Shown here: positions 36,070-48,533 of the stretch, piece by piece
Position numbering within the stretch: position 1 is the stretch's first letter
How the letters are laid out: every line of letters starts with the position of its first letter
From: Chitinophagaceae bacterium
Lineage (GTDB): Bacteria; Bacteroidota; Bacteroidia; Chitinophagales; Chitinophagaceae
Assembly: GCA_014879565.1 (NCBI GenBank)
Contig: JACSRW010000040.1
Location: 1-64,000 of the forward strand
Direction of reading: 5' to 3'
Length of the DNA stretch: 64,000 bases
Translations under genes and position numbers: made by a program
The notes under the pieces: generated by a model
The model's input: the letters and a program-made list of their open reading frames with translations, nothing else
Told to the model about the DNA's origin: nothing
Database searches by the model: none

Positions 36070-36576
36070 ATGCATTTGCCTGAAAGCAACGCCTGGACCA
36101 GGCTCAGCCATCATGTAACCGAAGAAGTCCGCCAGCACAAGGAGCATGGACAGAAAGCACTTTTCAGTCTTTGTTCCCGGAAAGCAGGAGATGTCATTGC
36201 TGATTTTTCCGCCGGTACCATTTCTGCAGAACCCACTTACCTGACCGTTCAGCTTGCAGAAGGCAAACACATTACCCTGCAGCCGGAATATCTCCAGTAT
36301 ATCAATCACAGCTGCGAACCCAATGTGTTTTTTGATACCACAGCCATGCAACTGGTAGCCCTGAAAGATATTCAGCCGGAAACGGAGCTGGTCTTTTTTT
36401 ATCCGTCTTCCGAATGGGACATGACCCAATCCTTCCGCTGTTTATGCGGCACGGCCTCCTGCCTCGGTGAAATAAGGGGGGCCGCACACCTGGGCCCCGA
36501 AACACTTGCCTTGTACCGGCTAACAGATTATATCCGGCAGCGTCTCCGCAAAAAATCCGCTAAAAAAGTAGCATGA
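36070..36576 (+). CDS. SET-domain protein (putative protein-lysine methyltransferase)
   Basis: YINHSCEPNVFFD, ELVFFYPSSEWDM, post-SET FRCLCGTASCLGEIRGA. Confidence 0.9.
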   Translation: MHLPESNAWTRLSHHVTEEVRQHKEHGQKALFSLCSRKAGDVIADFSAGTISAEPTYLTVQLAEGKHITLQPEYLQYINHSCEPNVFFDTTAMQLVALKDIQPETELVFFYPSSEWDMTQSFRCLCGTASCLGEIRGAAHLGPETLALYRLTDYIRQRLRKKSAKKVA

Positions 36577-37733
36577 AGACCGCCGACGCGCGCACGCTTT
36601 TACAACCGTATAATATCTGGGTGCTGGCTCCATACCTGGAATCAGCCGACCCGAATATTCAGTACTATTATGATTTCACCCAGAGTATAAAAGAATATAC
36701 TGCCGTATTTGAATGCCTGCAGCTGGCCTGGCATTGGCAACCCGTAACCCTGCAGAATTTCCGGGAGATCATTGCCGGTATACGCGCCGGATCGGATGGC
36801 CTGATTCCCCTGGTGCTGAATCTGTGTGACGGAGATGAGGTGAACGGAACACCCGGGGTTTCGGTCATTAAGGAACTGGAAAAACAGCAACTGATCTATA
36901 CCGGATCGGATATACACTTTTATACAATCACCACTTCCAAGATTCCGATGAAGAAAGCTTTTGATAAAGCCGCCGTGCCCAATGCAGCCTGGCGTGTATT
37001 ATCAGACAAGAAGGGAAGCATCCGGGGAATCTGTAAACGGGTGGGCACCCCGCTGATCCTGAAACCTGCCGTATCGGGGGGAAGTATGGGGGTGTCGGTA
37101 AAAAATGTAGTGGATAATGAGGAACAGCTGGCCGTAAGATTGGAAGAACTGAAAGGCGGATACCGGGGCTGGAACCTGCTGGCGGATGGCATCATTGCAG
37201 AACAATTCATCAGTGGTCCCGAGTACACAACTTTTATTACGGGCTCTGCCGATGATCCGGAGCACTGTATCGTGTACGAACCGGTGGAAAGAGTGTTTCA
37301 TGCATCCCTGCCGGAGAAAGAGAAGTTCCTTTCTTTTGACCGGCTCTGGGAAATTTATGAAGAAGAAACGCCGATGCCCGAACAGGAGAATTTTTATGAA
37401 TACCGCCCGGTTAGCGGTAAACTGGCTGCAGAACTGAAGGAACTGAGTATGCAGGCTTATAGGGCCTGCGGGGGAAAAGGATATACCCGTATTGATATCC
37501 GTCAGGATGCGGCGACAGGAAAATTGTATATGCTGGAAGCCAATGCCCAGTGCGGACTGAGCGAAGATGAAAACTATACCTCCATCGGGGCCGTTCTGAA
37601 AGCGTCATCGGTCAGTTTTACAGAAGTGATTACTGAAATCCTGAAAGATGCCCTGCGCAGAAGTGTAAAAAGAGAATTACTTAATAAACAAAAATCAGCA
37701 GCAAGGAAAAAGAAAGTGGTTTCGGTCCGCTGA
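36573..37733 (+). CDS. ATP-grasp ligase (D-Ala-D-Ala ligase-like)
   Basis: LILKPAVSGGSMGVSVKNVV, IAEQFISGPEYTTFITG, LYMLEANAQCGL; ATGA overlap with the upstream SET gene. Confidence 0.9.
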   Translation: MKTADARTLLQPYNIWVLAPYLESADPNIQYYYDFTQSIKEYTAVFECLQLAWHWQPVTLQNFREIIAGIRAGSDGLIPLVLNLCDGDEVNGTPGVSVIKELEKQQLIYTGSDIHFYTITTSKIPMKKAFDKAAVPNAAWRVLSDKKGSIRGICKRVGTPLILKPAVSGGSMGVSVKNVVDNEEQLAVRLEELKGGYRGWNLLADGIIAEQFISGPEYTTFITGSADDPEHCIVYEPVERVFHASLPEKEKFLSFDRLWEIYEEETPMPEQENFYEYRPVSGKLAAELKELSMQAYRACGGKGYTRIDIRQDAATGKLYMLEANAQCGLSEDENYTSIGAVLKASSVSFTEVITEILKDALRRSVKRELLNKQKSAARKKKVVSVR

Positions 37734-37768
37734 TCCTTCCGCCTTTGGAGCTGTTTAGCCGTAAGAAG

Positions 37769-39196
37769 ATGAAAATTTGTGTACTCCAGCCCGATTATTC
37801 CACCACCGGTGTGGATTATAAAAACTACGATCCGCCCCGCGATCTCAGTGTGCTGCTGCCCGGACATGAAGTGCATACGGTTTTCCTCAACAAACTGACC
37901 ACCTACAGCCAGCTCCGGGAACTGTCAAAATCGGGGTACGATATTTTTGTCAATCTCTGCGAAGGATACCTGGAATGGGAAGTGCCGAGTATTGATGTTA
38001 TCTATACCCTTGAACTTTTAAGCCTGCCGTTTACCGGTCCCACTACCCAGCTTTACGATCCTCCGAAGGAATTGATGAAATACCTCGCGTTCTGCGAAGG
38101 GGTGAAGACCCCGGGTTATGTACTGGTACATGGTCCGGAGGATCTGGACGAAGTAAATAAACAACTGAAGTATCCCTTGTTTGTTAAACCCGCCAAGGCG
38201 GGCGACAGCCTGGGGGTGGACGAACATTCCCTGGTGCAAAACCCGGAAGAACTGCAGCGGCAATGCGCCGGTATACTGGACGAATACGGTCCGCTGCTGG
38301 TGGAAGAATATATTGATGGCCGTGAGTTCACTGTGCTTGTGGCCGCTAATCCCGACGGACAAAACTGTACCGTCTTCCGGCCACTGGAATATGTTTTTCC
38401 GGAAGGAAGAACGTATAAGACCTATGCCCTGAAAACCTCCGAGCTGCACCCTGATTGTAATGTGCCCTGTACAGATCCGGAACTGGACCGGCAGTTGCGC
38501 AGTGCCACAGAAAAGATATTCCGGGGTTTTAACGGTCAGGGTTATGCGCGCCTGGATTTCAGGGTGAATGCGGCAGGCGAAGTTTATTTCCTGGAGATCA
38601 ATTTCACCTGTTCTGTTTTTTATAAAGACGGCTATGAGGGCTCAGCTGATTTTATCCTGAAATACGATGGTATCGGCCAGGCCGGTTTTCTGCAGCATAT
38701 GATCGCGGAAGGCATCGCCCGTCACCGGCGCCGGCAAAAGCCCTATTATTTAAAAGGAAATTCAATTGCCGGTTACGGCATTTACGCAGCAAGGGAAATA
38801 AAAAAAGGAGAATTGGTTTTTAAAGGGGAAGGCCGTGCCCAGCGGATTATCACCCGGCGTTTTGTGGAAACCCACTGGAATGAGGACGAACAACTGCATT
38901 TCCGTCGTTATGCCTACCCCCTGAGTGAAGAGGTTTTTATTCTCTGGGATGATAATCCCTCAGAATGGGCCCCCCAGAACCATTCCTGTGCTCCCAATAC
39001 CGCCTTTGACGGCCTCGACGTATTAGCAATAAAGGATATTTCTAAAAACCAGGAACTCACCCTTGACTATGCAGATTTTTTAGGAGAACACATGGAACCA
39101 TTTGATTGTCAATGTGGTTCAACAAATTGCCGGGGAAAAATAAAGGGACAACCCGGAAATACGCTAAATTTGCGGGAGAAATCCAGACCCCATTAA
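37769..39196 (+). CDS. ATP-grasp (D-Ala-D-Ala ligase-like) fused to a C-terminal SET/post-SET domain
   Basis: LFVKPAKAGDSLGVDEHSLV, LVEEYIDGREFTVLVA, VYFLEINFTCSVF; then GYGIYAAREIKKGELVFKGEG, NHSCAPNTAFDG, ELTLDYADFLG, FDCQCGSTNCRGKIKG. Confidence 0.92.
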   Translation: MKICVLQPDYSTTGVDYKNYDPPRDLSVLLPGHEVHTVFLNKLTTYSQLRELSKSGYDIFVNLCEGYLEWEVPSIDVIYTLELLSLPFTGPTTQLYDPPKELMKYLAFCEGVKTPGYVLVHGPEDLDEVNKQLKYPLFVKPAKAGDSLGVDEHSLVQNPEELQRQCAGILDEYGPLLVEEYIDGREFTVLVAANPDGQNCTVFRPLEYVFPEGRTYKTYALKTSELHPDCNVPCTDPELDRQLRSATEKIFRGFNGQGYARLDFRVNAAGEVYFLEINFTCSVFYKDGYEGSADFILKYDGIGQAGFLQHMIAEGIARHRRRQKPYYLKGNSIAGYGIYAAREIKKGELVFKGEGRAQRIITRRFVETHWNEDEQLHFRRYAYPLSEEVFILWDDNPSEWAPQNHSCAPNTAFDGLDVLAIKDISKNQELTLDYADFLGEHMEPFDCQCGSTNCRGKIKGQPGNTLNLREKSRPH

Positions 39197-39286
39197 ACGA
39201 CTTACTACCCCAATGGTCTGAGTTTATACCCCATTAAGTTTACTGTTGCGTTTTTTTAGTGAGGAATTCATCTAAACAGAGGAATT

Positions 39287-40192
39287 ATGTCCCGTTTTGC
39301 CGTACTCAGAGCAATCATGCTGCAGCACCGTTACCGGCTGGTGCTGACATACATTCTATTTTCCCTGGAAATGCTGGGCAGCTTAATGCGCCCCTTTTTC
39401 CTGGGACTGGCCGTGAACGATCTTATTAAAGGCAGTTACCAGGGACTTATTCTACTGTCCCTGGTTCACCTGGCCTGGCTGATCCTTGGTACAATCCGGC
39501 ACCGGCTGGATACCCGTACCTACACCGCTATTTATACTTCACTGGTTACCCGGCTGCTCGCCCGCAGATATAAAAAAGAAGAAATTTCCCGGCTCAGCGC
39601 GCATTCCACCCTTGCCCGTGAATTTGTAGATTTCCTGGAATTTGACCTGATCTATGTCATAGAAGCCGCCTACAGTATCCTGGGTTCGCTGGTTTTACTT
39701 TTCTTTTATGATACCGCCGTGGTCATGGTTTGCCTGGCCATCCTGCTGCCGGTTACGGGACTCAGTTATCTCTATGGTAAAAAGATGAAAAAGCTCAACC
39801 AGCAGAAAAATGATGAACTGGAAAAGCAGGTGAATATTATATCAACCGGCAACAGCCATCTCGTACGCCAGCATTATGAAAACCTGCGCAAATGGCAGAT
39901 CCGGATCAGCGATCAGGAAGCCTGGAATTTCGGTATCATGGAAATACTGGTAATGATTGTTATTGGTATATCGCTGCTGATCACCAACAAAACAGCTGGT
40001 TCTGGAATAGAAGCCGGCAGCCTGATCGGGATCTACAGTTATATACAGAAATTTGTATCCGGACTGGATACCATACCCTATACCGTACAACGTCTTTCTT
40101 CCCTCAATGATATTACCCGCCGGATTGAGATCCGGGACAGTGATCTCGATCAGCCCGGACCAGCCAGTGAAAAAATCAAAGAAGTGGCCTGA
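39287..40192 (+). CDS. Stand-alone ABC-transporter six-TM domain protein (no ATPase domain)
   Basis: ABC exporter TMD pattern (FLGLAVNDLI...LDTRTYTAIYTSLVTRLL...LAREFVDFLEFDLIYVIEAAYSILGSLVLLFF...); ends without Walker motifs. Confidence 0.8.
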   Translation: MSRFAVLRAIMLQHRYRLVLTYILFSLEMLGSLMRPFFLGLAVNDLIKGSYQGLILLSLVHLAWLILGTIRHRLDTRTYTAIYTSLVTRLLARRYKKEEISRLSAHSTLAREFVDFLEFDLIYVIEAAYSILGSLVLLFFYDTAVVMVCLAILLPVTGLSYLYGKKMKKLNQQKNDELEKQVNIISTGNSHLVRQHYENLRKWQIRISDQEAWNFGIMEILVMIVIGISLLITNKTAGSGIEAGSLIGIYSYIQKFVSGLDTIPYTVQRLSSLNDITRRIEIRDSDLDQPGPASEKIKEVA

Positions 40193-40229: not shown

Positions 40230-43200
40230 TTATTGTTTTACAAACAGGAGCCAGGTCCTTTTCTTTTTCCTGCTTTCCAGAATAACAATATACGTACCGG
40301 CAGAAAGATGTGCTACAGGAAGCTCCACCCGAATGCGCCCACTGATACCCGTTTGCTGAATATATACACCATTACTGCTGAGCAAACGAAGGTTTTCCCA
40401 CTGATCCGCTAACCGCAGGCTGTCAATAACCAGGATCTCATTGGCGGGATTAGGGTAATGCCGGATGCTGAACTGACTGGCTGGCACAGGGTCAATGGCG
40501 GTAACCGGAGATACAGTAAATGTCAGCACATTGCTGTTAACAGTCTGCGGACTGGCACAGGATGCATTACTGGTAAGCATACAGCGGATCTTCACCCCGT
40601 TGGCTGCAGGAGTATAGTTCAGAGTGGAACCGGTAGCCCCGCCGATATTTTGCCATCCGGCCGAAGCGGTACTGTCCTGCCATTGATAGGAAGGAGCACC
40701 GCCCCCGTTTACCATGACGGACACCAGGCTGCTGCTTTGTCCGGCATTCAGTGTGGTTGTTCCGGTTATCAGGATTACCGGTAATACAGCGGGTGTTACA
40801 GACAGACGGTAAATAGTTCCGAACTGGCTGCCATTCACCACACAGCGGTACCGGTAATTATTCCAGGAAGAGGGGATCGCTGAAAGCTGGAGCGTTGATG
40901 TGCCGGCTCCCGAGAAGTTACTGTTATTACTGATATTCGTATAGCCATTTCCGTTATCCTGCTGCCATTGATAGCTGCTGCCCGTAATGCCGGCACTGAG
41001 GCTGGTGCCTCCATTTGCACAGACCGCCACATTGGTAATATCGTAGGCGGGCTGCTTATTCTGCATTATACTGATGCTGTTGGAATAGCCATTGGTCCGG
41101 ATCAGTTCCGGCCGGCCATCCGCATCCATATCACAAACAGCCAGTGCCCCGCCCGGATTGTTCACAAAGAATGAAACCGGCCGGTCAAATGCGATACCCG
41201 TTGCGTCTGAACGGTTGGAAAGTGCGTAAACATAGTTACTGTAAACGTCTGCCAGCAACAGATCCGGTTTGCCATCCCCGCTGATATCAGCAAGCACCGG
41301 ACTTCCCGGGTTTTGAATCGGCAAACGGAGTGTTGTCTCAAGCGAAAAATATCCAGGGAACGACCGGTTCTTTAATACTACCAGCTCACTGGCCGCGGAG
41401 TTAGTTACAACCACTTCCGGTTTTCCGTCATTATCCAGATCTGCGGCCGCTACCTGCCGGGAACTCCAGGGCAGGGTAAGGGCGGATGCCTGGAAGGAGA
41501 TCGAATTTTCTGTACTCGTATTTTTCAGAATGGCGAGTTCCGGGGTATTGCTGCCTCCGGCAATCAGGATATCCGGTTTTCCGTCACCGTCAATATCCGT
41601 GATAAACATATCCGTGGTATAGGTGAATGCCGGGAAAGTCTGACGGGCGCCGAAATTAAAAGCGGTACCCGTTCCGGTATTCCGGAAAACAGATACAGCA
41701 CTGCCGTATTCACTCATCATACATACATCTGTACGGCCATCTTTATCAAAGTCGGCAGCCAGACATTTCCTTAATTCATAGTAACCGGTGAATGCCTGGG
41801 CTGTTCCAAAACTCAGCGGCCCTCCGTTGCTGTTATTGGGCAGCAGTGTGAATTCCAAACCGGTAGAACCGGCGGTTGACAAAATATCCGGTTTGCCATC
41901 ATTGTTGAAATCAGCATATACGGCCGACATCGGTCCGTAAACTGTTTGTACTGTTGACCGCGGTGCAAATGCGATATTCGGAGCCGTCGAGGCATTGGTG
42001 TAAAAAGTAAGATTGGAGAGCAGGGTGGATCCGCTGGGATTACAAACCACTACATCCGGTTTATTATCGAGGTTCAGGTCGCCGATGGCCAGGGCAGAGG
42101 GCCGTTTATACGAACCCGAATCCACGCTGCGGATAAAGGCTGCAGGACTAATGTCAGCTGATCCGTTAAAGGAGGGAATAAAATCTTTAACGGAATAAGC
42201 GGTCCGGCCATTTGTGGTTACTGTCACAGGGGAAAGAGATGCTCCGTAGGGAACGGTTACCGTAAGGCTGCTGCTGCTGGCTGCCGTAACCGTTGCTTTT
42301 GCCGTTCCAAAGAAGACGGTATTTCCGGAAAGACTGCTGCTGAAGTTTTGCCCGGTAATGGTGACAGAGGTTTCCGGGGCAGCACTTACCGGACTGAAAG
42401 AGGTAATAACCGGTGCGCTGGTATAAATAAAACCGGGAAGCGTACTGGTACCAGCCGGCGCCAGTACAGTGACGGTGCCCGAACTGCCGCTGCCAACGGT
42501 CGCTACAATAAGGGTATCCGATACCACAGTAAACCCGGCAGCCACAGTAGCGCCGAAGCGCACTTCTGTAACACCGGTTAATTGCTGGCCGGTAATTGTA
42601 ACCAATGAACCCGTAGTTCCTGTCAGCGGTGATATGGATGAAATGGATGGGACTCCCGGATTCAGGAACGTAAATCCTGAAATATTGCTTGTGGTAACCT
42701 GGTTGGTCACACTGATATTCCCGGATGCGCCAGACCCAACTGTCGCTGCAATTCGGGTGGGCGATTCAATAACAAAACTGCTGGCAGCCACCCCGCCGAA
42801 TTTAACAGCGTTCACACTGCCCATATTATGACCATATATGTACACGCGGTTCCCGGTTGATGCTGATTTTGGAAAGAAGTCTGTAATAATTGCCGGGTTA
42901 TTATACAAAAATCCATCGGCCACAGCTGTGCCTCCGGGACCCGACACTTCCAGTTTGCCGGTATTTCCGTCACCCACCGTGGCAGTAATACTTGTGGCAG
43001 AAGTAATGGTAAAGTTCCAGGCAGCGACACCCCCAAAACGCACGGAAGTTACCCCGGTAAAGCCCGTACCGGTTATGGTTACCGTTGACCCGCTGTTACC
43101 AATCTGCGGACTGAAGGAAGTAATAACAGGAATTTGCAAAAAGGTTATAGTGCCGAGAGAATCAGCTCCTGTGGCAGACACCACTTTTACCAGGCCGTTA

Positions 43201-46200
43201 GCTCCGGATCCGGCTATGGCGGTAATAGAACCGGGGTTATTCACCACAAAGGAGGTGGCTGCTGTATTTCCGAAATAGACCGCTGTGGCCCCGGTAAAAT
43301 TGGCTCCTGTTATTGTAACCGGCGTTCCCGCCGTAACGCTGGTTGGATAGAAAGAAGCGATTACAGGCTTATCTCCATATATAAACCCGGGCAAACTGGC
43401 AATACCGGTATTGCTGTGAACGGTTACAGGTCCCGATGCGCCGGGACCGAGTACCGCTTCAATTATGGAAGAAGAGATTACCGTAAACGAAGCGGCTGAT
43501 ACACCTCCGAAAGTTACATTGCTGATTCCGGTAAAACCTTCTCCGCTGATTGTAACAACGGTACCCGAAAGTCCGCTTACGGGACTAAAACTGTTCAGCC
43601 TCGGACCCGGGCCTCCGTGCTGGTTCCGGAACACGGTGGCAGGTGCTCCACCGCCGAATACAATGATATCAGGCCTTCCGTCACCATCCAGATCTCCGGA
43701 TTCAACACGGAAAGGGTCATTGCCGGTTTCCAGGGTAATTCGGGGGGCAAAGGAAAGGGAGCCGATACTGCTTGTATTGGCAAAAAGAGACAGCGAATCG
43801 GCCAGACTGGGAACAAAAAGATCCGGTTTACCATCCCCGGAGAGATCGTTGATGCCGTTTCCATAAGGCATATCTCCGGCAGGTATCTCGGGAAGGGAAC
43901 TAAAGCTGATATTGCCGGAAGAGCTTCCATTCAAAAACACGGATATGCCATCCGAGCCCACATTGGAAACAAGCGCATCCAGGCGTCCATCGCCGTCGAG
44001 GTCACCTGTGGTGAGATAAGAGGGCCAGTCGTTTGCCGGAAAACTTACTCTCGGGGCCAGGTTGAAATTTCCCGGGGTGCTGAGATTACGGAATACCGAC
44101 AATTCACCGGCCAGCGCAAGGATATCAGGCTTACCGTCATCATCCACATCTGCTGCTTTAATGCCATTTCCATACGTACTTAGCGGGTAATCAAAACGCG
44201 CAGAAAAATTGATAGCGCTGGCAGAGCTGTTATTCTTCAGGATACTGATGATTCTGCCGGAATAATTCGCAATTAATAATTCTGGCTTGCCGTCACCGTC
44301 AATATCACTGGCGGAGAGATAAGCTGAGTTAGAATGACTACCGGTCGGAAAACTGTATATGCCGGAAGCCGCTACATAACCGGGGGTGCTGTTATTCCGG
44401 ACCAGCATTACCTGTGTATTGCTCTGAATAAAGGCAAGATCTTTTTTTCCGTCACCATCAAAATCCTCACTGATCATACCACCGCCGCCTTCCGTTCCGC
44501 TGATTACAGCAGCAGGGGCAAAAGAAATTTGTCCGGGTACACCGGTATTTCTGGCCACAGCAATAGCGGTACTGCTCCAGCTTCCCGCTATATCCAGTTT
44601 GCCATCACCGTCAAAATCCACGAGGCAGCCTGCGGGCATATTGCCGATATCTATCCGGTTGGCAAATGAATGGGCGGTCAGGGTACTGCTTCCATTGGGA
44701 AATGTTGTCAGGAAGGGTTTAGCCGACCAGGCGGTGAGTCGGTTCCGGGTTACGGATACCGGCGCATATACAGATCCTGGCGGTACATAAACGGTGAGGC
44801 TGGTTGCGGTAGCTGTTACGGCTCTTGATTTTACTCCGCCGAAATAAATAATATTGTCTTCAGGAATTGTACTGAAACCGCTGCCGGTAATGGTAACCAG
44901 TGTGCCAACCGTTCCTTTTAGCGGACTAATCGATGTGATGACCGGAGGATAACCATAAACAAAACCATTCAGGGAATCTGCTCCGGTGGAATTGAAGACC
45001 GATACATGTCCGGTGGCACCGCTTCCCACTATGGCTGTGATGGAGGAGGAAGAGTTGACCGTAAAAGAAGCCGCCGCCACGCCGCCAAAGCGAACTGCTG
45101 TTGTGCCGGTAAAATTAGCACCGGAAATGGTAACGCTGGTGCCGTTTTCTCCAATGGTAGGTGTAAATGACTGCACCGATGGTTCTGCTTTTACTTCATT
45201 GCGGAGAACATATACTTTACGCTGTACTTCACAGGAGACAGTTATATCATATTTTCCGTCATTATTGAAGTCAGCAAGGGCTATCTGATTTTCGGTTCCA
45301 TACGCACCGGGGAAATAGTTTTTTTGTGCCAGCATACTGATGTTGCCGGGTGTGGATATGTTCTTGAATACCGTTAGCACATTTTCATATTGCGCCAGCG
45401 CCACATCTGGTTTTCCATCTCCGTCCAGATCGCCCACAATAAGTGAAGCAGGAAGTGATGCGGCGCTGTAGGATACCGGATCGGCAAAGGATATCGTGCT
45501 ACCCGTACCGGTATTGCGCATAATGGAAAGCTGTGATCCGTAATGATCAGCCGATACCACATCCTGTTTGCCGTCACCGTCAATATCTCCCAGGGCAATA
45601 TAAGAATGATTGTAAGGGGGCAGCGAAGCGGACATACTGAAGTTCAGTACACCGGGTGTGGAATTATTTTTCAGCACACCAAAACCCGAGATGACCAACT
45701 CGGGCTTTCGGTCACCGGTCAGATCCATCGGAACAAAATTCCGTTCGAAAATGGTATTATAGATTATCTCTGCTGTGGCGAATTTAATGTCGCCCGGCTC
45801 GCTGGTATTTCGTACCACATACATATTTCCCCCGGAACCAAAGACCAGGTCATTTTTACCATCCATATCCGCATCTGTGATACGTACACGTGCGTTTGCC
45901 AAACCGGTAGTGGTTGTGACTGCGGGCGCAAAGGATACTGTTCCGGGAACGGAGGTATTTATATAGGTCAGCAGATTCGGGGAAGCTGCAATGACGATAT
46001 CTGTTTTGCCATCTCCGTCAATGTCCCCGGTAGCAAAGGATTCATAACCTCCCGGCAGTTCTACTGCTGTGCCAAAACTGATCGCTCCACCCGTACCGGT
46101 ATTGGGATAGATAAGTACACCATGTACAGAACCGGGGTTGTTCAGTTTAAGTATGATGAGTTCAGTTCTTCCGTCACCATCAAAATCGGCTGCACCTGTA

Positions 46201-48533
46201 CCAAATGGCAATACCTCATTTCCGTTAGTGAGCTGGCTTGCCATGGTAAAGGAGGATTGGGTAATGCTGCCGCCTCCCGCAAAAGTCACCAGGAAGGGCT
46301 GGGAAGAGTGACTGGTCAGGTTATTGGCAGATACCGTGATGGGGGTATACCCGGCTCCGTAAGGAACGGTTACCGTGAGGGATGTGGCAGAAGCGGCCGT
46401 GATGACCGCCCTGGTGGCGCCGAAATATACCGTGTTGCCCGCCTGGGTTGTATGAAAGCCCGTTCCGGTTATGGTTACGCTTGTACCCACAGGACCCGAA
46501 AGCGGACTTACAGAATTGATGACTGGTGGGGGTAACCAGGTAAATCCCGGAAGGGAGGAAATTCCTTCCGGTCTGGTGACCTGAACAGCGCCGGATGAAC
46601 CGGGTCCCACAATGGCTGTGATCGTGCTGGAAGAATTTACGGTAAAGGATACAACATTGATTCCACCGACCGAAACAGCGGTTGTCCCGTTGAGGCTGGT
46701 TCCTGTTATCGTCATGATGGTACCATGTGTTCCTTTATCCGGAGTAAAAGAGCTGATCGTGGGTAACGAGGAATAGCCTGTTATAGTTGCGGTACCCCCC
46801 GGCGTGGTTACACTGATGGAACCGGAAGGACCCGAAGGAGCAATGGCAGTTATTTGTGTCGGAGAAATGACCGTATAGGATGCCGGTATGCCACCCATTA
46901 ATACGGTGGTGGTCCCTGTGAAATTTGTTCCGGTAATCGTTACAGTGGTTCCGGCTGCAGCGGAAGCAGGGTTAAAAGTACTGATCGTGGGCGGCGGGAT
47001 AAATGTAAATCCAGGCAGGGAATCCTGGCCGTTTACGGTGAGCACTTTTACAAAACCGCTGGCTCCTGTGGAGACCGTGGCATTGATCGTTGTGGGAGAG
47101 ACAACGGTTACAGAAGCAGCCGGGACATTTCCAAAACGTACCGCTTGCACATTCGTGAAGTTCTGACCGGTTATAGTTATAACCGCTCCGGCGCCGCCTG
47201 TCTGGGGGGTAAAAGAACTTATGGATACGGGGGGCCAGAAATACTGGTGAATGGTGAGGGAATCGGACAGGGTCCCGTTGTTGACCACGAGTTTAATACT
47301 GTCGTGGTTACTGGCCGGATCACGCTGGTAGCTGGCATTATAAGCGGTACTGATCAGTACATTATTCCGGTACCACTTATGACTGTAAGCGGGTTTGGAA
47401 TAGCTGAATAGTTTTACCGTATTGGTATGGTAAAACCCGGACGTGTCAATTTTCCAGTAGGCTTTGGGCAACGGAGTACCGCCGGCATTGGTGGTAATCT
47501 CAAGAAAATCGCGGGCACCCCCCGCCCAGAACTGGTTATTATTAATAAAGAAGAGATCGTAGTGTCCGTAATTCAGGTAACTGAAATTATTATCCCGGGG
47601 AAGGGGTTCCCATACCCTGCCGGAGTCGCTGGTTTTATAGGTATTAAACAGGTATGTTATGGCATAACCGGTGCTGTCATTTATAAATTTCATTTTCTGC
47701 ATGCCGATGGGATTTACGGAGGCAACATTTTTCTTGGTCCAGTTAACCCCTCCGTTGGATGTATAATAGACCAGCAGACTGTCCGTGTTCGGATACACAT
47801 TAATCCATCCTTTATCCGGCGTGATAAAATCAGCTGCATACAGGCGAAAATCAGGGATCGTTACCTGTGTCCAGGTCAGCCCGGCATTAGTTGTTTTAAT
47901 CAGTTTACCCGTAGGAGCGGTTCCGCTTTCGTCATCCGAGAAGGCATAAACGGTAGTATTGTCCAGCGCATCTATTTGGGCAATGGAAAAAGTACTGCCG
48001 GCATACACACGGGTCCAGGTGGTACCCCCGTTGCTGGTTTTATAGATATTAAATCCGTCAGCCGCATAACCCGTCTGATTAGTTTGTGGAAATACGACGT
48101 GAAAAAGGGAACTGAATGTGGTTGGACCAATCTGCTGGTGATGCACCAGCAGGTAACTCAAGCCCCCGTTATCCGATTTCAGAATAGCGGGCACCAGCCC
48201 GTAATCCCCGTAGACGATCAGATTGTTCTGATCAAAAGCGACCACCCCGTTTATACTGAATCCGAAAGTCAGGTTCACTGAATAACCGTTGTAGTCCACA
48301 TTCGCGAGGGTTATTTCTCTTTTTATAAAAGTACGGCCGCTGTCTGCAGTATACCCCACCCAGTCAAAGGAGTTTCCGGTAGAAGCTATATAGCCCTGCG
48401 AAGGACTGTAAAAACTAATTTTTTTGATGATATCATTCGGGGTGCTCAGATTGGAATATATCTGACGCATTTGCGAATAAGAAAGAAAAGACACTAAGGA
48501 TAAGGTCAGGCAAAGAAAAATTTTCCGGAACAT
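40230..48533 (-). CDS. Giant (2767 aa) secreted repeat protein: BNR/YCF48-like N-terminus, 12 IPT/TIG repeats, three FG-GAP/VCBS blocks, T9SS C-terminal sorting domain
   Basis: Repeated PxIxSFxPxxGxxGtxVTITGxxFxG...VxFGG; DxDGDGxxD motifs; C-terminal IRHYPNPANEILVIDS...LSAGTYIVILESRKKKRTWLLFVKQ. Confidence 0.93.
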   Translation of the reverse strand: MFRKIFLCLTLSLVSFLSYSQMRQIYSNLSTPNDIIKKISFYSPSQGYIASTGNSFDWVGYTADSGRTFIKREITLANVDYNGYSVNLTFGFSINGVVAFDQNNLIVYGDYGLVPAILKSDNGGLSYLLVHHQQIGPTTFSSLFHVVFPQTNQTGYAADGFNIYKTSNGGTTWTRVYAGSTFSIAQIDALDNTTVYAFSDDESGTAPTGKLIKTTNAGLTWTQVTIPDFRLYAADFITPDKGWINVYPNTDSLLVYYTSNGGVNWTKKNVASVNPIGMQKMKFINDSTGYAITYLFNTYKTSDSGRVWEPLPRDNNFSYLNYGHYDLFFINNNQFWAGGARDFLEITTNAGGTPLPKAYWKIDTSGFYHTNTVKLFSYSKPAYSHKWYRNNVLISTAYNASYQRDPASNHDSIKLVVNNGTLSDSLTIHQYFWPPVSISSFTPQTGGAGAVITITGQNFTNVQAVRFGNVPAASVTVVSPTTINATVSTGASGFVKVLTVNGQDSLPGFTFIPPPTISTFNPASAAAGTTVTITGTNFTGTTTVLMGGIPASYTVISPTQITAIAPSGPSGSISVTTPGGTATITGYSSLPTISSFTPDKGTHGTIMTITGTSLNGTTAVSVGGINVVSFTVNSSSTITAIVGPGSSGAVQVTRPEGISSLPGFTWLPPPVINSVSPLSGPVGTSVTITGTGFHTTQAGNTVYFGATRAVITAASATSLTVTVPYGAGYTPITVSANNLTSHSSQPFLVTFAGGGSITQSSFTMASQLTNGNEVLPFGTGAADFDGDGRTELIILKLNNPGSVHGVLIYPNTGTGGAISFGTAVELPGGYESFATGDIDGDGKTDIVIAASPNLLTYINTSVPGTVSFAPAVTTTTGLANARVRITDADMDGKNDLVFGSGGNMYVVRNTSEPGDIKFATAEIIYNTIFERNFVPMDLTGDRKPELVISGFGVLKNNSTPGVLNFSMSASLPPYNHSYIALGDIDGDGKQDVVSADHYGSQLSIMRNTGTGSTISFADPVSYSAASLPASLIVGDLDGDGKPDVALAQYENVLTVFKNISTPGNISMLAQKNYFPGAYGTENQIALADFNNDGKYDITVSCEVQRKVYVLRNEVKAEPSVQSFTPTIGENGTSVTISGANFTGTTAVRFGGVAAASFTVNSSSSITAIVGSGATGHVSVFNSTGADSLNGFVYGYPPVITSISPLKGTVGTLVTITGSGFSTIPEDNIIYFGGVKSRAVTATATSLTVYVPPGSVYAPVSVTRNRLTAWSAKPFLTTFPNGSSTLTAHSFANRIDIGNMPAGCLVDFDGDGKLDIAGSWSSTAIAVARNTGVPGQISFAPAAVISGTEGGGGMISEDFDGDGKKDLAFIQSNTQVMLVRNNSTPGYVAASGIYSFPTGSHSNSAYLSASDIDGDGKPELLIANYSGRIISILKNNSSASAINFSARFDYPLSTYGNGIKAADVDDDGKPDILALAGELSVFRNLSTPGNFNLAPRVSFPANDWPSYLTTGDLDGDGRLDALVSNVGSDGISVFLNGSSSGNISFSSLPEIPAGDMPYGNGINDLSGDGKPDLFVPSLADSLSLFANTSSIGSLSFAPRITLETGNDPFRVESGDLDGDGRPDIIVFGGGAPATVFRNQHGGPGPRLNSFSPVSGLSGTVVTISGEGFTGISNVTFGGVSAASFTVISSSIIEAVLGPGASGPVTVHSNTGIASLPGFIYGDKPVIASFYPTSVTAGTPVTITGANFTGATAVYFGNTAATSFVVNNPGSITAIAGSGANGLVKVVSATGADSLGTITFLQIPVITSFSPQIGNSGSTVTITGTGFTGVTSVRFGGVAAWNFTITSATSITATVGDGNTGKLEVSGPGGTAVADGFLYNNPAIITDFFPKSASTGNRVYIYGHNMGSVNAVKFGGVAASSFVIESPTRIAATVGSGASGNISVTNQVTTSNISGFTFLNPGVPSISSISPLTGTTGSLVTITGQQLTGVTEVRFGATVAAGFTVVSDTLIVATVGSGSSGTVTVLAPAGTSTLPGFIYTSAPVITSFSPVSAAPETSVTITGQNFSSSLSGNTVFFGTAKATVTAASSSSLTVTVPYGASLSPVTVTTNGRTAYSVKDFIPSFNGSADISPAAFIRSVDSGSYKRPSALAIGDLNLDNKPDVVVCNPSGSTLLSNLTFYTNASTAPNIAFAPRSTVQTVYGPMSAVYADFNNDGKPDILSTAGSTGLEFTLLPNNSNGGPLSFGTAQAFTGYYELRKCLAADFDKDGRTDVCMMSEYGSAVSVFRNTGTGTAFNFGARQTFPAFTYTTDMFITDIDGDGKPDILIAGGSNTPELAILKNTSTENSISFQASALTLPWSSRQVAAADLDNDGKPEVVVTNSAASELVVLKNRSFPGYFSLETTLRLPIQNPGSPVLADISGDGKPDLLLADVYSNYVYALSNRSDATGIAFDRPVSFFVNNPGGALAVCDMDADGRPELIRTNGYSNSISIMQNKQPAYDITNVAVCANGGTSLSAGITGSSYQWQQDNGNGYTNISNNSNFSGAGTSTLQLSAIPSSWNNYRYRCVVNGSQFGTIYRLSVTPAVLPVILITGTTTLNAGQSSSLVSVMVNGGGAPSYQWQDSTASAGWQNIGGATGSTLNYTPAANGVKIRCMLTSNASCASPQTVNSNVLTFTVSPVTAIDPVPASQFSIRHYPNPANEILVIDSLRLADQWENLRLLSSNGVYIQQTGISGRIRVELPVAHLSAGTYIVILESRKKKRTWLLFVKQ

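Follow-up and report, generated by a model that had tools for sequence, protein, structure and literature searches.

Gene organization of the cassette

A 64,000-nt stretch of contig JACSRW010000040.1 from a Chitinophagaceae bacterium, referred to as the window, carries a four-gene cassette at positions 36070-40192 of the plus strand. In order of transcription, it consists of genes for a stand-alone SET methyltransferase (SET1), an ATP-grasp ligase (GRASP1), a fusion of an ATP-grasp and a SET domain (FUS) and the transmembrane domain of an ATP-binding cassette (ABC) exporter (ABC3). With slightly better than even confidence, the cassette is read as a small pathway that synthesizes a methylated small molecule of peptide-like nature, combining ATP-grasp ligation with SET methylation.

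The coordinates and Pfam calls (Table 1) agreed with the initial annotation, which had described four tightly packed genes on one strand. SET1 and GRASP1 overlap by the sequence ATGA (36573-36576) and the subsequent genes are separated by gaps of 35 and 90 nt. The start of FUS was placed at the ATG at 37769 (MKICVLQPDYS) as the most likely one, since FUS relatives share that start; the longest open reading frame (ORF) begins with TTG at 37745. The motifs listed earlier for two SET domains with post-SET cysteines and two Ddl-like ATP-grasp domains, namely NHSC, CLCGTASCLGEIRG, CQCGSTNCRGKIKG, NLCDG/NLCEG and EAN/EIN, were all confirmed in the window. Hydropathy analysis of ABC3 yielded four strong membrane segments, six being the expectation from the Pfam family alone, and no nucleotide-binding domain was detected in the protein using Pfam.

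Table 1. Features of the SET/ATP-grasp cassette (nucleotide positions in the window; motif and domain positions in residues)
Feature	Position	Strand	Product	Profile match	Motifs and domains
SET1	36070-36576	+	Stand-alone SET methyltransferase, 168 aa, BurB-like	Pfam SET, E 1.1e-8, above cut-off	NHSC at 79-82; Tyr111; post-SET CxC...C
GRASP1	36573-37733	+	Ddl-like ATP-grasp ligase, 386 aa	Dala_Dala_lig_C, 8.6e-15 (Pfam/NCBIfam)	NLCDGDE; K164-P165; R306xD308xR310; E322xN324
FUS	37769-39196	+	ATP-grasp::SET fusion, 475 aa	Dala_Dala_lig_C, 1.2e-21; SET, 2.6e-10	ATP-grasp ~1-317, then SET ~326-462
FUS SET domain	38720-39196	+			WAPQNHSC; LTLDY Tyr434; CQCGSTNC
ABC3	39287-40192	+	ABC exporter transmembrane domain without nucleotide-binding domain, 301 aa; optional member	PF13748 ABC_membrane_3, 1.9e-47	

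Conservation in related genomes

Each cassette protein was searched against the same 149 related genomes, FUS being counted by strong matches only. The genomes with GRASP1 and those with FUS coincided, numbering 51 (36 of the 42 of the same genus, 13 others of the family and two from a different family in the order). The two genes lie side by side in 50 of these and on separate contigs in the remaining one (G038). SET1 was present in 49 of the 51, mostly directly upstream. It was absent from G129 and G141, was located elsewhere in G063 and downstream of ABC3 in G046, and gave a truncated match in G003. The solo SET1 genes of G128 and G063 had no informative neighbours. ABC3 was detected in 24 of the 149 genomes, 23 of which also carry FUS, and usually follows FUS directly. 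Based on these counts, SET1, GRASP1 and FUS make up a near-obligate unit, with ABC3 as an optional but specific companion. Co-conservation of all four genes, as initially proposed, was therefore retained for the first three. The ABC protein is nearly specific to the cassette but is not fixed in it (23 of 51 cassettes), and Chlorobium has instead a full exporter without BLASTP similarity to it.

The genes form one conserved unit, which was also retained in several genomes of 1.7-2.0 Mb of the same genus. The ratio of nonsynonymous to synonymous polymorphism (pN/pS) was 0.13-0.40 for each of the four genes, with synonymous sites near saturation; as judged from these ratios, all four are under purifying selection. 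Together with the shared occurrence of GRASP1 and FUS and the (nearly) invariant residues in the family alignments described below, these values argue against a chance assembly.

Of the 21 loci examined, about half have a convergent mnmG-like gene downstream, and its recurrence points to a fixed chromosomal site. No conserved small ORF that could encode a precursor or carrier peptide was detected within 900 bp upstream in these 21 loci; downstream, only the mnmG-like gene was conserved. A graspetide cluster, producing a ribosomally synthesized and post-translationally modified peptide, was therefore rejected, the gaps within the cassette also being only 35 and 90 nt long. Downstream of the cassette in the window, the place of the mnmG-like gene of many relatives is occupied by a gene for a 2767-aa protein (40230-48533, minus strand), in which repeated IPT/TIG-like and FG-GAP-like stretches were recognized by eye.

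Catalytic residues and fold of the ligases

Alignments were made of 33 FUS relatives from several phyla (A3), 32 SET1 relatives (A4) and 21 GRASP1 relatives (A6). As judged from these alignments, both enzyme classes retain their catalytic residues. The ATP- and magnesium-binding residues Lys, Glu, Arg-x-Asp and Glu-x-Asn are conserved in A3 and A6 and invariant in the latter. Similarly, the N-H-x-C motif, the active-site Tyr and the CxC...C cysteines are invariant or nearly so in A3 and A4: in SET1, this holds for N79, H80, C82, Y111, C124, C126 and C131 (all invariant), and in the SET domain of FUS for His405 (invariant) and Tyr434 (nearly invariant).

Confident AlphaFold2 models were obtained for FUS, with two domains (predicted local distance difference test, pLDDT, 92.2; predicted template modelling score, pTM, 0.87), and for SET1 (pLDDT 94.1, pTM 0.87). 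The best fold matches of the FUS model were D-Ala-D-Ala ligases (E 4e-20 to 1e-15, approximately 20% identity). FUS shares its fold and its ATP/Mg residues with the Ddl/Van family, and carboxylate-amine ligation chemistry is likely common to both. Unlike in that family, NLC(D/E)G and N-x-x-C replace the Ddl motifs in the cassette proteins, and FUS carries a SET domain. The curated Ddl cut-offs of 243-246 bits were not reached by FUS (84.3 bits) or GRASP1 (88.9 bits).

Relationship of the SET domains to BurB and histone methyltransferases

The profile built from the SET1 alignment matched BurB with 84.6 bits (E 5.5e-23) along most of the domain; next best was a histone methyltransferase, with 46 bits and over the C-terminal half only. 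Using the SET1 model as a Foldseek query, three BurB chains were retrieved first (9.8e-10 to 3.4e-9), with ASH1L (1.2e-6) approximately three orders of magnitude behind. By both profile and model comparison, SET1 is closer to a SET methyltransferase of free amino acids than to histone enzymes. BurB of Burkholderia thailandensis (PDB 9l4t, 9l4v) is a SET enzyme that S-methylates free methionine, and its product, S-methylmethionine, is a step towards dimethylsulfoniopropionate (DMSP) (PMC12542666). Like SET1, it is a stand-alone bacterial SET protein of approximately 170 aa serving a biosynthetic cluster, and the two share the HSC core, the active-site Tyr, an STE...F-x-C-x-C post-SET stretch and a GA following it. 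Identity is only 28%, however, BurB lacks the Asn of NHSC, and the pathway described for it contains no ATP-grasp ligase (PMC12542666).

The counterparts of BurB His93 and Tyr124 are kept in SET1 (His80 and Tyr111, both invariant) and in FUS (His405 and Tyr434). In the alignment, most side chains through which BurB contacts S-adenosylmethionine (SAM), namely Arg42, His72, Arg133 and His138, are replaced in the SET1 family. The decarboxylase, aminotransferase and dehydrogenase that act with BurB towards DMSP were not seen as conserved cassette neighbours either, and for these two reasons SET1 is not established as a methionine methyltransferase. The initial annotation had assigned lysine methylation to the SET domains. 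The canonical SET residues are present; with BurB as the nearest solved relative of SET1, the rule that a SET domain means protein-lysine methylation is probably inapplicable here.

Using hhalign, the FUS SET domain was recognized as a homologue of SET1 (99.5%). The profile of the FUS domain (A5) matched BurB with 58 bits over 60 residues of the C-terminal part and KMT2A with 55 bits across the full domain length. A third SET-like stretch, separate from these two, was observed in the same genome (locus L004, 1501-1737; G000:C28:207791-208027), with a 160-aa open frame and one TGA inside the match.

Distribution and neighbourhoods in other lineages

FUS was also found in Chlorobium, Chloroflexota, Cyanobacteriota, Gemmatimonadota and Planctomycetota. 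In a phylum-wide sample, full-length FUS occurred outside the order in nine genomes of one genus (family f38) and in single genomes of three other families, among others. A species-wide scan retrieved it from Lacibacter cauensis, Chlorobium ferrooxidans, Brasilonema, Caldilineaceae, Gemmatimonadota, Longimicrobiales, a planctomycete and Desulfomonile, and in the cyanobacterial class it was present in two of 291 genomes. Two ATP-grasp matches on rhizobial plasmids had no annotated SET gene nearby and were set aside. The combination of ATP-grasp and SET enzymes is widespread among Chitinophagaceae and in Chlorobium, with sporadic occurrences in no fewer than four further phyla. In a tree of the ATP-grasp part, FUS sequences fell into two groups, with modest within-group support and bootstrap values that had not settled. 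The first comprises Bacteroidota, Gemmatimonadota and Cyanobacteriota, in which GRASP1 is a common neighbour. The second comprises Chlorobium, Caldilineaceae, Longimicrobiales and others, including Anaerolineales relatives without a SET domain; no GRASP1 was seen near its members. GRASP1 is therefore not a universal partner of FUS.

The neighbourhoods of distant FUS and SET1 homologues are biosynthetic. The Chlorobium locus carries SET1, FUS, a full ABC exporter with transmembrane and nucleotide-binding domains and a third SET gene. Common ancestry of this exporter and ABC3 was dropped as an explanation, no BLASTP similarity being found between them. In the cyanobacterium UBA8803 (locus L125), genes for a nonribosomal peptide synthetase (NRPS), a FUS homologue without SET domain, an ectoine synthase (above the curated cut-off; seen in this genome only) and two GRASP1 copies are followed by genes for cyclic nucleotide-binding and HlyD proteins. 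The gene content of this locus, with its NRPS-like protein, solitary ectoine synthase, ATP-grasp enzyme and two GRASP1 homologues, suggests a cluster for small-peptide synthesis that has not been described so far. Absence of SET and presence of another methyltransferase fit a role in tailoring a small product, in this one genome. The NRPS-like protein (358-4140 in L125, same gene in L196) has adenylation, methyltransferase, thiolation and thioesterase (A-MT-T-TE) domains, with a PRMT5-like methyltransferase embedded in the A domain; reading this A domain by eye gave no clear substrate. The mycosporine pathway, in which an ATP-grasp enzyme is combined with an A-T-TE protein, was considered for this NRPS cluster and rejected as only loosely similar, its early enzymes not being among the genes identified in L125 and L196.

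In Brasilonema (L122), a two-component system, FUS, SET1, a FemAB-like protein and GRASP1 lie together. Another cyanobacterial locus (L195, 8844-11934) has consecutive genes for S-adenosylmethionine (AdoMet) decarboxylase, FUS in its ATP-grasp::SET form, an EutQ-like cupin and an EamA transporter. In genome G353 (L086, 3044-11099), FUS is located beside a triad of FGase, MATCAP and glutathione-synthetase-like ATP-grasp genes and a gamma-glutamyltranspeptidase gene. Distant SET1 relatives were found on two plasmids. In Sphingomonas paeninsulae (L199, 4809-6547), the SET gene overlaps a gene for a pyridoxal phosphate (PLP)-dependent decarboxylase of the ornithine/diaminopimelate type, a pair resembling that of BurB and S-methylmethionine decarboxylase. 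On plasmid p7 of Rhizobium bangladeshense (L200, 3871-5783), the relative, annotated as a hypothetical protein, is encoded between an AsnB-like gene and one for AdoMet decarboxylase; p7 also carries genes for ribonucleotide reductase and of the ParB type. Taken together, these neighbourhoods point to amino-acid, amine or peptide chemistry.

Proposed pathway and alternatives

In the ATP-grasp superfamily, formation of an acyl-phosphate followed by amide ligation is established chemistry. In the proposed pathway, the ATP-grasp domain of FUS, together with GRASP1 where present, would activate carboxylates in this way and couple them with amines, so that two amide bonds form in succession. The SET domains of SET1 and FUS would methylate an amino-acid part of the same molecule in a SAM-dependent manner, either before or after ligation, with an amine nitrogen or, as in BurB, a thioether sulphur as candidate atoms. 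ABC3 in some lineages, and the full exporter in Chlorobium, may move the product across the membrane. We infer the small-molecule substrate, the action of ligation and methylation on one product, the order of the steps and the transport. The initial suggestion of a peptide- or amine-like product that the cassette both synthesizes and methylates is upheld as the best reading by the conserved unit, its residues and the biosynthetic neighbours, provided that a lysine target is not assumed.

Several observations weigh against this reading. No activity was found reported for any cassette member. Besides the replaced SAM contacts of SET1, the SET domain of FUS stands at a similar distance from BurB and KMT2A and could therefore act on a protein lysine. 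ABC3 is missing from over half of the cassettes, and the informative cyanobacterial neighbourhoods are single genomes.

The match to KMT2A over the whole domain, almost as good as that to BurB, is among the points that speak for protein tagging. Here the ATP-grasps would ligate an amino acid or peptide onto a protein of the cell, and methylation of that protein or of the tag would fall to the SET domains, much as TTL-family enzymes and histone methyltransferases act. Modification of proteins is established for TTL- and RimK-type ATP-grasp enzymes. In human TTLL12, SET-like and TTL (ATP-grasp) domains are combined in one chain (PMC3520985). TTLL12 lacks critical catalytic residues, however, whereas FUS retains its own; SET1 is clearly BurB-like, the ATP-grasp of FUS belongs to the Ddl-like group that joins small amino acids, and the neighbours are NRPS, ectoine synthase, AdoMet decarboxylase and FemAB genes. 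The idea of a protein tag added by ligation plus methylation, also raised initially, found no support, as neither a carrier peptide nor a small ORF was conserved within 900 bp, and it is considered unlikely.

A role in compatible solute or sulfonium metabolism was judged improbable. SET1 would then produce S-methylmethionine or an N-methylated basic amino acid, and the ligases would turn it into an osmolyte or storage dipeptide with an amide linkage, which would stay in the cell. This would agree with the reaction of BurB, with the ectoine synthase and AdoMet decarboxylase genes adjoining FUS relatives, with the decarboxylase gene overlapping SET on the Sphingomonas plasmid (a class that could decarboxylate S-methylmethionine) and with the many cassettes that lack a transporter gene. 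However, no decarboxylase, aminotransferase or dehydrogenase was seen consistently beside SET1 in the Bacteroidota cassettes, its SAM-contact residues differ from those of BurB, and the ectoine synthase was seen in one genome only.

Still less likely are conventional protein-lysine methyltransferases that regulate the ATP-grasps or other proteins, leaving the ligases to make an unmethylated peptide. The canonical NHSC, catalytic Tyr and post-SET cysteines would suit such enzymes, and one SET1 relative is annotated as a protein-lysine N-methyltransferase; yet two or three SET domains per cassette, one of them fused to a ligase, would be costly for regulation, and the closest solved enzyme, BurB, acts on a free amino acid. 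An anti-phage defence or toxin cassette, for which the patchy distribution across phyla might speak, is very nearly dismissed: PADLOC gave no match for any of the four window proteins, SET1 was unmatched in 50,697 phage records (a phage origin was rejected on the same search), and the constant position next to an mnmG-like gene in many relatives, together with the retention in 36 of 42 genomes of the genus, is unlike defence islands.

Comparison with known systems and significance

TTLL12 was the only protein with ATP-grasp and SET domains in one chain found in the literature searched. Its SET-like domain comes first and its TTL domain last, both without critical residues, and no activity was found (PMC3520985); FUS has the reverse order and intact residues. 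No paper on a bacterial ATP-grasp with SET was found in the same literature, although Iyer and colleagues may have noted the neighbourhood earlier in their amidoligase survey of 2009. SET genes of Chlorobium, but no ATP-grasp or ligase, are mentioned in a review of bacterial SET proteins. The initial statement that no characterised pathway has this composition was thus borne out in the literature searched. ATP-grasp dipeptide and pseudopeptide clusters in general resemble the cassette, since a transporter and tailoring enzymes accompany one or two ligases of this type, but a SET domain fused to the ligase as tailoring methyltransferase was not found among them in that literature. SbmA/BacA-type proteins have an exporter-type ABC transmembrane domain without ATPase. 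ABC3, which belongs to PF13748, similarly lacks a nucleotide-binding domain.

The cassette was rated as ATP-grasp peptide or amide biosynthesis with an unusual type of methyltransferase, apparently undescribed. The chances are about even that it stands for a class of biosynthesis not described before, where a peptide ligase of the ATP-grasp superfamily cooperates with SET methyltransferases, in part within a single fused enzyme, to produce a methylated metabolite of amide or peptide nature. SET domains are read nearly automatically as protein-lysine methyltransferases. If the proposed pathway is correct, they would serve as small-molecule tailoring enzymes well beyond BurB; many bacterial SET genes labelled as protein-lysine methyltransferases would then probably be misannotated, and bacterial small-molecule SET enzymes may bear on the origin of the eukaryotic domain. 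The presence of the cassette in the named strains Lacibacter cauensis and Chlorobium ferrooxidans makes the question directly testable. Near-universal in one genus and retained in genomes of less than 2 Mb, the cassette points to an undescribed metabolite.

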